Translations under genes and position numbers: made by a program
The notes under the pieces: generated by a model
What the model was told of the DNA's origin: nothing
The model's input: only the letters and a program-made list of their open reading frames with translations
Databases searched by the model: none
NCBI GenBank assembly: GCA_963930775.1
Contig: OZ005702.1
Span: 868,001 to 932,000, forward strand
Length of the DNA: 64,000 nucleotides
Source of the DNA: Cliona cf. orientalis
Lineage: Eukaryota; Porifera; Demospongiae; Clionaida; Clionaidae
Reading direction: 5' to 3'
In this document: piece after piece, positions 12 through 29,733 of the stretch
How positions within the stretch are numbered: the stretch's first letter is position 1
Layout of the letters: the number at the start of each line of letters is the position of its first letter

Positions 12-2155
12 CTGAATTAGTTTCATGTATCTGAAGCCTACATTCTTCACAACACTAACACTAGATATTGAATTTCCCTACAGAAAGAGCTCAATAGGTG
101 TTAAAATATCCAGATTATTATGGTCAGTAAACTAACTAATGCTAACATTTTTTAGGATAGTGACGTCAGTACTTGTCTCCACCAAAGTAGCTTGTGAGTT
201 TGAATTTGGTGGCTTCACTCCAACGGGCCACCAGAGGTACTTGTCTTCTATCACAGAGGCTGCTATAAGATCACTTTGGACCGTATAGCACTCAGAGAAG
301 TCATCTTTTATTGTGGACACATGAATAGTCTAATTGAGAAAACACTAGTCTTTAGGTATACATAAAATGTATTATGGCAGTTCTGTACCTCTTGAATTTT
401 TGGGAAGCTTGGACCACTAACAGTGGTTGCTATAGAGACATCAATGGTTGTTGGTTTTGGAATGATGATGCAGACAGTGACAGTGACAAAGTAAGACTTC
501 GTAGATTCATCATAGCCAGTCTTAGGGATCACATAGGAGACATAGGCCTCAGTGAATGTGACCAGGCTGAGGATTAAAAGTAGTATTTATATTGCAAAAA
601 GAGTGTGTGGTCCCGTGGTGTAACGGTTAGCACCTGAGACTCTGAATCTCAAGATCCGAGTTCAAATCTCGGCGGGACCTTCTCTTTTTTTTTTTTTTCT
701 TTTCCCCATTATCTCGACATCATCTTTCTCTCTTTTTTTTTTCTCCCGCCTTCTCTAAGCTTCTACATTTCAAAAAAGTATTTTTTTTTTCTATACCTGA
801 TATTTTGCCATATTCCTGCAGGAACAAAGGCAGGCCCCCAGTCCCAACCAAAGTCAGACTGCGCTTTGCGGACAAAATTCCTCACGGAGTAGTTAAAGAA
901 GTTGCCATCAACAAACACCGGGTAAGGATACTCTGCAGCTGTCCTATTGGAGTAGTTAGATGCTGACTGTATTATCATAAAGAACAGTATAATATTCTAC
1001 TTTCAAGTTTTTATCCTAATTACAGATTGCTTACCTCAAAAGCAATAGAAATAGTGTTTTCACCTGCCTTTACCTCATCCTATGCCGAGGAAGGAATAAA
1101 CATTAATATAATAAACTACCTAACTTCACCATTACTCTTTATTTAAAGTTGGGAAAGAAAACCGAGCCAAATAGATGTATGTCCCATTCCAATTCCAAGA
1201 TAATTATGGACTCTAGACCTCAAAATAGTTGGATTCACAAGACTTAGTTATAATATACATACCGTAACATTAAAGAGGTACTGTCTGTGCATGTTATTGG
1301 CTGTTCCCACCGGCAGGATATTGATGCTGCATATGAAAAAGTAAAAAGGTCACCATAAATATTAATTATTCCACACATGCACACATGTACATGTAAAGCC
1401 ACGTCACATTTCTGTGGACCAGCTAAAGATGGTGCCAGAAGCATGATAGTGCAGTTGCTACGTAGTCTGTGATTGAATATTGTTGTACCTAACTGTGGCC
1501 ACTGTGTCCAGCCCATCACACTTCAACCAGACCGTCTTTCCCTCAATCTGGTCGCGATCAACGGTAAAGGTTCTGCTATAGTTCCAATTGTCGTAGCCGA
1601 TCCACTGATAGAGCCAGTCATTCCAGCCGTCTGGATGATAGAAAAGTGTTGTGTGAAGGTATAGCAGATATTGATAGTCATATAATTTATATTATTTTTA
1701 AGCTATCCTACGTAAGCTAGACTAAAGCCAGAGTGAGATCATAATAATACAACTTACTGTATGGATCTTCAATGATTCCATCGCGTCTGCAAATAACAAA
1801 CAAGGCAGAGAAATTATCGATATATAGTCAAGCAATCACTGATTCTAGACCTCAGTATAAATTTTTGGTATGCTTGAAAATTATAGTCTGTATTGATCTG
1901 CATGTTTTAATTAACACTAGCATGCATGCATTAATATTCGATTCAGAAGTTTAATAGAGTGCATGACCATGCTGTATCCACTTACATGAGGTCAAGGTGC
2001 ACTACTCCAGGGACCTGCGCCTTGATAGCCTTGACCCTGCCGTCGGAGTCTGAGAGGGACCAGGAGTCACCGTTGAGGGATATCTCCAGCTGATCACCCA
2101 CCGCTCCGCGCACGAGAAGGAGCAGAGCTAGAGCGAGCAAATGACAGACAGCCAT
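12..2155 (-). CDS. MANBA: Beta-mannosidase (lysosomal, GH2), 5' part of gene, partial
   Basis: Lysosomal exo-glycosidase that removes terminal beta-mannose from N-glycan fragments. Nine exons join in phase: 1986-2155, 1758-1786, 1489-1630, 1263-1326, 1035-1079, 797-966, 389-566, about 147-329 and 12-77, giving about 349 residues before the window edge. The start at 2155 opens a signal peptide ([20 protein letters not shown]) followed by the GH2 jelly-roll N-terminal domain: [46 protein letters not shown] and LWWPVG all match mammalian MANBA in order. The TIM barrel with the two catalytic glutamates lies beyond position 1 and is not seen. The donor of the exon ending near 147 is uncertain (an alternative lies about 15 bp upstream in the gene). 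The first exon start is about 300 bp downstream of the PINCH stop on the same strand, so each has its own promoter. A tRNA gene sits in the sixth intron. Confidence 0.9.
609..680 (+). tRNA. tRNA-Gln (anticodon CTG)
   Basis: A 72-nt cloverleaf. The acceptor arm is GGTCCCG (609-615) pairing with CGGGACC (673-679), with T680 as discriminator. The anticodon stem TGAGA/TCTCA (635-639, 647-651) encloses loop CTCTGAA with anticodon CTG at 642-644. The T arm contains the B-box-like TTCAAATC, and the A-box region is GTGTAACGGTTAGCACC. A long T-run begins at 685 and would terminate RNA polymerase III. There is no intron and no encoded CCA. The gene lies within an intron (567-796) of the beta-mannosidase gene, on the opposite strand. 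Confidence 0.95.
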
Positions 2156-27579: not shown

Positions 27580-27655
27580 GAGTTCCATAACTTCAGGCAA
27601 TCTGCCTCTTGGCGGTGACCAAGTTTGAGCAGCTACCTTCATGAGAGAGAATCCC
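27580..27655 (-). promoter_or_regulatory. Candidate SECIS element (selenocysteine insertion hairpin)
   Basis: On the minus strand, in the 3' UTR of the C18orf32-like gene, 78 nt past its stop. Read 5'->3': helix I GGGATTC/GGAACTC (27649-27655 with 27580-27586); internal loop; 5' quartet ATGA (27639-27642) opposite TGAA (27592-27595); helix II GGTAGCTGCT with AGGCAGATTGCC, one bulged A; then unpaired CAAA with the conserved AAA (27624-27626); apical mini-stem CTTGG/CCAAG closing loop TCACCG. Twelve nucleotides separate ATGA from AAA. These are the defining parts of a type II eukaryotic SECIS. Folding was done by eye. Confidence 0.75.
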
Positions 27656-27732
27656 TGAGTGATATCGATAACGATAGCAAAGAGAATTCTATTGGATCCA
27701 ATTCACAGCGTTGATAAAGGTGGCAGTTTTTA

Positions 27733-28096
27733 TCATGTCTTGCATGATTCGGTGACTTTGGCGGCCGAGACCAGACCCTCTGCTTCAGCAGTGATCCTTT
27801 GCCTGTGTAGGGAAGAGAGAGAGGAGGAAAGAAATAAATGAGGGCTAAAATTGTCAAATTATGATGTGTCAACCATCATTAGCAGCCTACCTGACGTTTG
27901 ACTGATCTACTTGGGAGGCGGGGCCCTTTTGCTGATCTTGGCCGTTGACATGGCTTGTCGGATCTTCCTTATTTTCCGATGCCTTGATCGCCTTCCCCGC
28001 TGGATCTACTCCCTTCCACCAGTCAACCAGAGGCTTGATCACTACCCTCCACAGGAGCAGCGCCACCGGGATCACGAAACAGCTTATTCAGACCAT
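27733..28096 (-). CDS. C18orf32 (UPF0729) homologue with in-frame TGA, candidate selenoprotein
   Basis: Two exons (27891-28096, 27733-27802), 92 codons including stop. The start ATG is 28096-28094; codon 3 is TGA (28090-28088), followed by ISCFVIPVALLLWRVVIKPLVDWW. Human C18orf32, as I recall it, begins MVCIPCIVIPVLLW, so TGA sits exactly where the first Cys of the CxxC is found, giving U-x-x-C. Without readthrough no ATG remains in the frame, yet the downstream coding sequence, splice phases and family similarity are intact. The rest is a hydrophobic segment (about 7-24), then a polar tail with KAIKASENKED. A SECIS-like hairpin is present in the 3' UTR. The human protein is a small ER/lipid-droplet-associated membrane protein of unclear activity. 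Alternatives are a sequencing error or a decayed gene. The promoter side holds MARE- and NRF-1-like sites. Confidence 0.75.
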
Positions 28097-28256: not shown

Positions 28257-29075
28257 CTATGTCTTAGCATTGTGAGCAATGTAGTGCTGGTTCATGGGGT
28301 TTTCTGGTGACTTCATCCATTCCTTTCTAAGCAGCTGCTTCAATTGAGACATTCTCAAATTCGGGTTTTCCTCTTTCAATCGAGGCAGCTCCCTTTCCTC
28401 GTAGGCTGCGTAGGCTGCCTTCATTCTTCTCTCTGGATGTCTGTCTTGAGGCTCTTGCCCGACGCTTAGCACCGCAATGGCTTCATCAATAGTTCTTGCT
28501 TCTATCTCACCAGCCATTCGTCTTTCCTGAGCCTCACGGTTAGGATTGAGTTCAAGGGTTGGTTCATCGATTGACAGCCTTTTTGGGAGAGCAGTAGCAC
28601 CCACTGAGGCCTCACTCTCTCTCCTTCGCTGTTCTTCAGCTTCAGCAATTTGAGCACGGGTAACCTTTGCTGCCCCTCCTCCTCCTCCTCTGGATGACCT
28701 CCCCCCAGGGCCAAGCTTAGCCTCTTCTTCAGCTAGGAGGAGTTTGGCCTCCTGCTTCTTGTCGAGCTGTTCTTGTCGCTTCTTCTCACGTTCAGCCTGT
28801 GAAAACAAAACAAAAAAAAAATGATGAATGAAATGATAGAACTAGCCAGTCTGCAGTGCAGCCCATTGATGTACATAGTATAAAGCTTCCAAATAATTTA
28901 GTGTGTCATTTTGTACCCTTCTATCTTGTTTTCTCTGAGCATGTTTGTCGTCGTCTTTCCAGTAGGCGTCCTCTTCAGCCCTTCTCTTTCTCTCGTCCGC
29001 CTCTTGCTTGGCTGCCTGTTTCCTCTCTCTGGCAGCTGCCGCCTTGCTGTTCTCTCCCTTAAACTTCTTCGGCAT
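28257..29075 (-). CDS. CCDC124: CCDC124 (Lso2-type ribosome hibernation / translation factor)
   Basis: Conserved eukaryotic coiled-coil protein; its yeast homologue Lso2 binds the ribosome A site and aids recovery from dormancy. Two exons (28917-29075, 28257-28796) encode 232 residues; human CCDC124 is 223. The N-terminus MPKKFKGENSKAAAARE and DAYWKDDDKH are nearly invariant in the family and include the ribosome-binding segment. A Lys/Glu-rich coiled coil follows. The C-terminal domain contains VTRAQIAEAEEQRR, EARTIDEAIAVLSV, DRHPERRMKAAYAAYEE and ENPNLRMSQLKQLL, ending NPMNQHYIAHNA. The first ATG gives the exact family start. It is divergent from neugrin with only 83 bp between start codons. 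Confidence 0.96.
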
Positions 29076-29158: not shown

Positions 29159-29733
29159 ATGCGCACCATGCACCATCTTGTGTCATCATGCTGTCTTTCA
29201 ACTCTGTCAAGAATTAGCAACATCCGACTGTGCCAGAGAAGCTTATGGAGAGCAGCAGAATTCTGCAGAAGTTATCAAACTGAGCTCATAGATACCAATG
29301 ACCCAGAAGCTCAAAGGTATGCCTGCAGCCTGGCATGATCTACTGCATACGTCTTTTCAGTTGTGCTTCAAAATTGTCTAGAGCCAAGAACCCAGCTGGA
29401 TTAGAGGACAAGAACTGGAGAGATCTTCGAAAGAAGCAGAGACTCGGGCACAGCCATTGGCAGCCAATGAAGCGACTCACTCACGAACAAATAGACCACC
29501 TGAGAAATCTCAAACAGATGAAGCCGGAGGAATGGACCAATCAGAAGCTTGCATCAAAGTTTGGAATCAGTGTACCATCTGTGATTCGTATACTGAAGAG
29601 TAAATTTGATGCCACTCCCGAGATGCGTGCAAGACAAGACGCCAAGGCTCTTCAACAGAGAGACAGTCGAAGAGAAAAGATACATCATGAACGCAAAAGA
29701 GAACCAAAATCTAGAGAATTAGAATCAATCTAA
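29159..29733 (+). CDS. NGRN: Neugrin / Rrg9-like mitochondrial protein
   Basis: Neugrin takes part in mitochondrial 16S rRNA pseudouridylation and ribosome assembly in mammals. Two exons (29159-29316, 29361-29733) give 176 residues. The first exon encodes a basic, Ser/Cys-rich presequence (MRTMHHLVSSCCLSTLSRIS) consistent with mitochondrial import. The core domain follows: DKNWRDLRKKQRLG, HWQPMKRLTHEQIDHLRNLK, PEEWTNQKLASKFGISVPSV and IRILKSKF, a helix-turn-helix-like segment matching human neugrin. The protein is shorter than human (291) because the poorly conserved C-terminal tail is absent. The upstream ATG at 29159 was chosen because it yields the presequence and an in-phase splice. Confidence 0.88.

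Follow-up and report, generated by a model that had tools for sequence, protein, structure and literature searches.

The window, a 64,000-nucleotide stretch of the genome of the sponge Cliona cf. orientalis, carries on its minus strand what we take, with a probability of about 0.9, to be a genuine selenoprotein gene. Judged from its sequence, the gene would encode a divergent homolog of C18orf32/UPF0729 in which the UGA at codon 3 is decoded as selenocysteine (Sec) under the direction of a SECIS element in the 3' UTR. This reading is supported by four agreeing lines: the homology to C18orf32; the build of the SECIS; the presence in the same genome of tRNA-Sec, SepSecS, and ordinary selenoproteins; and eight relatives that begin at codon 8. 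A broader proposition, held less firmly but still likely, is that the gene belongs to an undescribed selenoprotein family shared by several related species (probably sponges), namely C18orf32 with a Sec in place of Cys at codon 3, and that it identifies the near-invariant CxxC motif of the human protein as a place of redox catalysis on membranes of the ER and lipid droplets.

Structure of the Candidate Gene

The candidate gene (minus strand, 28096-27733; Table 1) comprises two exons and 91 codons, the first of which, read downwards from 28096, are ATG-GTC-TGA-ATA-AGC-TGT-TTC-GTG-ATC-CCG-GTG. The minus-strand start M-V-TGA-I-S-C-F-V-I-P-V given in the original prediction is thus the one encoded, and the accompanying claims of an intact splice and frame with no in-frame ATG downstream also stand: the exons are joined across an 88-nt GT..AG intron, the spliced product numbers 91 residues (MVUISCFVIPVALLLWRVVIKPLVDWWKG...VTESCKT), and no Met follows Met1 anywhere in the 91-codon frame. 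With A at -3 and G at +4, the start ATG lies in a good context for initiation. Searches of the assembly (217 Mb in 149 contigs) detected no second copy of the gene at E <= 0.001, the two matches obtained being the two exons of the candidate itself.

Table 1. Positions of the features of the candidate gene (window numbering) and of the tRNA-Sec gene.
Feature	Position	Strand	Remarks
Start ATG	28096-28094	-	followed by GTC, TGA, then ISCFVIPVALLLW...
Exon 1, coding	27891..28096	-	M-V-U(TGA)-I-S-C-F-V-I-P-V-A-L-L-L-W-R-V-V-I-K-P-L-V-D-W-W...S-N-V; ends in phase 2; matches homologs and DUF4512
In-frame TGA, codon 3, proposed Sec	28088..28090	-	on the first Cys of C18orf32 MVCxxC
GTG (Val8)	28073..28075	-	first possible start codon past the TGA under the bacterial code; start of 8/8 close relatives
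Intron, 88 nt, GT...AG	27803..27890	-	donor GT at 27890
Exon 2, coding	27733..27802	-	RQRITAEAEGLVSAAKVTESCKT, first R split by the intron; stop TGA 27735-27733, TAA directly after
SECIS element, type II-like	27584..27651	-	3' UTR; Rfam SECIS_1 and own scan
tRNA-Sec gene	L006:1501-1587, contig C14:1175346	+	same contig as the candidate, ~280 kb away

Conservation of coding sequence past an in-frame TGA is a mark of selenoprotein genes, and such conservation was found here. The intact frame and splice, together with the conserved protein, also speak against a sequencing error or a pseudogene, in which codon 3 would really be a Cys codon or the gene would be dying, and the hairpin in its 3' UTR would have arisen by chance. 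In favor of error or decay, the N-terminus was read in one DNA copy, and a single base parts TGA from TGT or TGC.

The gene ends in TGA-TAA (27730-27735, minus strand). The terminal TGA is taken as the stop; given a SECIS in the mRNA, some readthrough to a second, C-terminal Sec before the TAA is conceivable.

Homology to C18orf32

The Pfam model DUF4512 (PF14975) matches the window protein at 22.3 bits (E 2.2e-4), without reaching its curated score of 27. Replacement of Cys3 with S, A, W, or R lowers the score to 17.0-18.5, a Cys at the TGA column being worth 3.8-5.3 bits, and replacement of Cys6 with S or A lowers it to 18.5-18.6 (a loss of 3.7-3.8 bits); changing S5 to P raises it to 25.2. 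The match is gone when the first seven residues of the window protein are removed, and four of the relatives that are without this N-terminus (P0003, P0124, P0125, and P0129) give no DUF4512 match. Profile-profile alignment with hhalign of window exon 1 and the eight close relatives against nine Cys-type homologs returned an E of 2e-11 with the N-terminus included and the TGA entered as Cys. When the first seven codons were removed, E was 6.6e-6 and the register was unchanged, with the TGA still on Cys3. Because these seven codons were left out, the latter match is free of the assumption that the TGA stands for Cys. The register obtained both with and without the N-terminus agrees with the original prediction that the TGA replaces the first Cys of the C18orf32 CxxC. 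In addition, a profile (A2) built from the window protein, two typed variants of it, P0001, and P0003 finds P0130 at E 4.6e-3, and P0130 itself scores 38.2 bits against DUF4512.

A query with human C18orf32 returned 431 proteins. Among the best 120 of these 431, CxxC is present in 117, and 113 carry a Cys at codon 3 within MVCxxC; the three without CxxC (P0067, P0071, and P0093) are truncated or altered at that place. The candidate resembles the Cys form of C18orf32 found in animals in its small size, in the M-V-C-x-x-C frame followed by [IV]-P in register, and in having one hydrophobic stretch and a polar tail, but differs from it in the TGA for the first Cys, the S for P inside the motif, and a divergent middle and tail. 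Together these comparisons support the assignment of the candidate as a divergent C18orf32/UPF0729 homolog whose TGA would fall on a nearly invariant Cys. A search of the PDB found no relative; a search of the genome with the DUF4512 profile gave no match, but the controls of that search also gave none.

Relatives Starting at Codon 8

The protein database holds eight close relatives (P0001, P0003, and P0124-P0129; P0002 is the window's own protein), which share 34-95% identity with one another and with the window. All eight start at window codon 8, with M-I-P-V or M-I-L-L, and none contains CxxC. When ORFs are called mechanically on the window, in which the TGA is known to be present, the same start results, the GTG of Val8. 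The control set consisted of 16 Cys-type homologs from ena/lgn-only sources (all 14 such entries among the best 120 of 431, plus P0130 and P0131): MVCxxC is present in 14, of which 11 have an extension upstream of Met1; another starts MCIPC, P0093 is altered, and not one starts at codon 8. Fisher's test on 8/8 versus 0/16 codon-8 starts gives 1.4e-6, a value that treats related proteins as independent events. At their other end, five of the eight relatives finish in ...QSxxR exactly as window exon 1 does, a stop being provided there by the donor, and P0001, P0125, and P0129 continue for 7-9 residues more.

The simplest reading of these starts is that all eight relatives would have a stop, presumably TGA, between codons 1 and 7; as each begins just past the TGA site, a conserved stop would precede a conserved protein. 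The codon-8 starts are the strongest new evidence for the selenoprotein reading, and it is difficult to see how an error or a dying gene in the window would be accompanied by eight other database proteins, 34-95% identical, that share an ORF start past the stop site. They also suggest that automatic annotation would probably miss the gene, since every one of the eight database relatives begins beyond this site. Searches of viral and genome contig collections for the DNA of the relatives matched only locus L034, on a gammaproteobacterial MAG contig, and this was rejected as a short chance resemblance inside another protein.

A true start at codon 8 would, however, give the same pattern in the relatives. 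The protein might be made without Sec, either from a downstream start such as the GTG of Val8 or from another first exon that leaves the TGA in the 5' UTR, and the modest score of the SECIS (20.3 bits) fits with this. Against it, the frame downstream offers no ATG, GTG is rarely used as a start in animals, and the sequence before Val8 is purine-rich with no evident acceptor (by eye). Production without Sec also leaves unexplained both the SECIS and the match in register between M-V-U-x-x-C and MVCxxC, and it is considered very unlikely.

The SECIS-Like Hairpin

The 3' UTR had been predicted to fold into a hairpin with an ATGA/TGAA quartet, AAA, an apical stem, and 12-nt spacing, and all of these were recovered: the 5' core ATGA (27642-27639) is followed by 12 nt, AAA, and a 6-bp apical stem, and there are an 11-bp helix with one bulge and the 3' core TGAA. 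Rfam SECIS_1 matches 27651-27584 over its full length at 20.3 bits, below its gathering score of 35, with an E of 1.5 that applies to 3,001 bases on two strands searched with 4,227 families. For this family alone, a score of 20.3 bits corresponds by arithmetic to ~1.3e-5 in 213 nt of one strand, 0.008 in the whole window, and ~26 elements expected by chance in the whole genome. Neither the genome-wide SECIS_1 search nor a joint control search (piece L029) lists the candidate; its E at those search sizes is above 10.

As an isolated fold of 81 nt, the hairpin is unremarkable (z -1.09, with 31 of 200 shuffles folding at least as well), and fold energy alone was on this account rejected as proof of a SECIS; the 176-nt piece of 3' UTR folds better (z -2.98, with 0 of 200 doing so). 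With a loose pattern, our own scanner reported 13 hits in the window with energies of -8 kcal/mol or lower, the candidate being the best (-16.9 versus -14.2 for the next). Hits of its strength numbered 22 in 40 shuffled windows, counted at a cut of exactly -16.9 that the real hit (-16.8999) narrowly misses, and this frequency is the second point in favor of an error or pseudogene with a fortuitous hairpin. The strict pattern ATGA-N12-AAA at equal energy, on the other hand, gave 3 hits in 40 shuffled windows, or ~1.2e-4 for the candidate 3' UTR, and the strict pattern with at least 10 helix pairs (a floor picked after the candidate was seen) and tolerance gave 1 hit in 150, or ~1.1e-5. A strict-grammar hairpin in the right 3' UTR thus has a chance of ~1e-5 to 1e-4, and, with the evidence from the frame and from the relatives, error or decay appears even less probable than production of the protein without Sec. 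The grammar and the place of the SECIS are unusual; the hairpin apart from its place would not convince.

Selenoprotein Loci of the Same Genome

As controls we used seven SECIS elements from six other loci (Sep15-like, TXNRD, SelK with a tandem SECIS copy, GPx, SelW-like, and SelL-like), a list of the loci found rather than a complete selenoproteome, in which the Sep15-like locus is counted without its Sec codon having been seen. Their SECIS_1 scores are 32.0, 31.2, 28.5, 26.8, 24.3, 23.8, and 22.9 bits; the candidate, at 20.3, is the lowest of the eight compared. As none of the seven reaches 35, the Rfam gathering score was dropped as a yes/no test. The distance from the 5' core to AA is 12 nt in five of the six distinct controls (13 in TXNRD), as in the candidate; the 5' core is ATGA in five (TTGA in GPx), with both features together in four, and the 3' core is TGAA or TGAT in five (CGAT in GPx). 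Beyond AAA the control elements align poorly. Two of the controls, GPx with its TTGA and TXNRD with its 13 nt, escape the strict ATGA-N12-AAA pattern. Our scan gave -19.3 kcal/mol for Sep15 and -9.6 to -12.6 kcal/mol for the others recovered, and with the loose pattern it failed to find the TXNRD element and did not pick out the correct one for GPx. These comparisons support the view that the candidate SECIS has the same build as the putative SECIS elements at selenoprotein loci in this genome.

Searched genome-wide, SECIS_1 produced three hits from the 134 candidates scored out of 5,043 at first look: one after the thioredoxin reductase end ...TQGCUG, one after the SelL-like gene, and the second SelK SECIS copy; the 32.0-bit Sep15 element is absent from the hits among these 134 of 5,043. 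Gene-first searches added the Sep15-like, GPx (SQUGLTDKNY), SelW-like (GGUGYAPRY), and SelK (GGGGUGR) genes, all of which are followed on their own strand by a SECIS_1 match. With the SelW-like gene, the SECIS lies ~3.6 kb from the matched exon and the two are presumed to belong together. A second GPx locus (L022/L028) has no SECIS_1 match. The SelK-like gene (contig C8; L030:704-771, minus strand) is accompanied by a near-identical second SECIS ~2.7 kb further on (L004:1501-1568, minus strand), apparently a tandem copy. The SelL-related/AhpC-TSA_2 protein, with U-P-P-C (L005:882-1454, plus strand), has its SECIS just downstream (1501-1566, plus strand); it scores 90.3 against the NCBIfam SelL-related cut-off of 120 and is possibly of a divergent type.

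Selenocysteine Machinery

The genome contains one clear tRNA-Sec (76.8 bits; ARAGORN anticodon TCA). The seven weaker hits that were checked, out of 17, all proved to be tRNA-Ser. SepSecS is represented by six exon matches, three of which have stops inside the matched stretch, presumably at intron edges. With tRNA-Sec and the SepSecS exon matches, the host has Sec machinery.

The presence of tRNA-Sec bears on a further alternative, true readthrough of the stop codon with insertion of another amino acid and without a SECIS. A frame that is open and conserved beyond the TGA would suit such readthrough, but the TGA sits exactly on the Cys column, a SECIS-like element is located in the 3' UTR, and the base after the TGA is A rather than the C that directly follows the stop codon in common readthrough contexts. 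Of all the alternatives, this is regarded as the least probable.

Proposed Mechanism

For the preferred reading, that of a Sec-containing C18orf32 homolog, translation would begin at 28096 and reach UGA at its third codon. SECIS elements recruit SBP2, eEFSec, and Sec-tRNA, and the one proposed here, ~357 nt downstream in the spliced mRNA (arithmetic), would do so to direct the insertion of Sec at codon 3. To our knowledge, this would place Sec earlier than in any animal selenoprotein, and it raises the mechanistic question of how a UGA two codons past the start is decoded as Sec rather than as a stop. By analogy, very early Sec codons may be inefficient; in E. crassus SelW reporters, a UGA at position 85 was used more efficiently than one at position 9 (PMC3737529).

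In the product, M-V-U-I-S-C-F would lead directly into one hydrophobic helix, such that Sec3-x-x-Cys6 heads the predicted membrane helix. AlphaFold2 (16 sequences) models one helix at residues 4-29, with block pLDDT values of 76-86 there, in a model that is weak overall (mean pLDDT 62.3, pTM 0.29). The UxxC motif may form a reversible selenenylsulfide, and Sec would make this pair, elsewhere Cys-Cys, more reactive. The most likely activity, by analogy, would be that of a thiol/peroxide oxidoreductase working at the membrane surface of the ER or of lipid droplets; this placing of the candidate is proposed because human C18orf32 is reported there, being described as a lipid-droplet protein with a level controlled by ligases linked to ERAD (PMC9213792). 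Binding of metal by the Cys pair, or its attachment to lipid, seems less likely because Sec would bring no clear gain to either. Human C18orf32 may likewise have a redox role.

Relation to Known Selenoproteins

Like SELENOK and SELENOS, the candidate would be a small selenoprotein anchored in the membrane, its short Sec motif lying outside any thioredoxin fold. In those proteins, however, Sec is found near the C-terminus, after the membrane helix, whereas in the candidate it would be at codon 3, before the helix; the SelK-like gene of the same genome also differs from the candidate, ending in GGGGUGR. With SELENOW-type and other UxxC/CxxU selenoproteins, the candidate would share a helix headed by a Sec and a Cys with two residues between them, but, unlike the SELENOW type, it appears to have no thioredoxin-like domain, the weak model predicting a single helix. 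A selenoprotein family found only in sponges has been reported before, that of the AphC-like protein (PMC3473315); it is a thioredoxin-fold protein, and no resemblance to the candidate was noted.

New animal selenoprotein families are rare. That the C18orf32 family had not been described as Sec-containing, as the original prediction supposed, holds for the literature searched: Table 1 of the metazoan survey of Jiang and colleagues gives 22 Amphimedon selenoproteins, with the C18orf32 family not among them (PMC3473315), and a literature search, whose reach excluded subscription papers and preprints, showed among the papers listed no report linking C18orf32, UPF0729, or DUF4512 to selenocysteine. 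C18orf32 has been named among the regulators of GPI-anchored protein biosynthesis, with mutations in patients having neurodevelopmental anomalies (PMC10940682). If true, the present reading would add a new selenoprotein family and bring redox chemistry to this poorly understood human disease protein; exchange between Sec and Cys is a classic pointer to catalytic redox cysteines, and it provides a testable biochemical hypothesis for C18orf32.

Neighboring Genes

A CCDC124/Oxs1 homolog (28257-28841, minus strand; Pfam E 1.7e-38) lies on the same strand as the candidate gene and ends ~160 nt upstream of its ATG. Head to head with this CCDC124-like gene is a neugrin-like open frame (29302-29733, plus strand; Pfam Neugrin E 2.6e-14).
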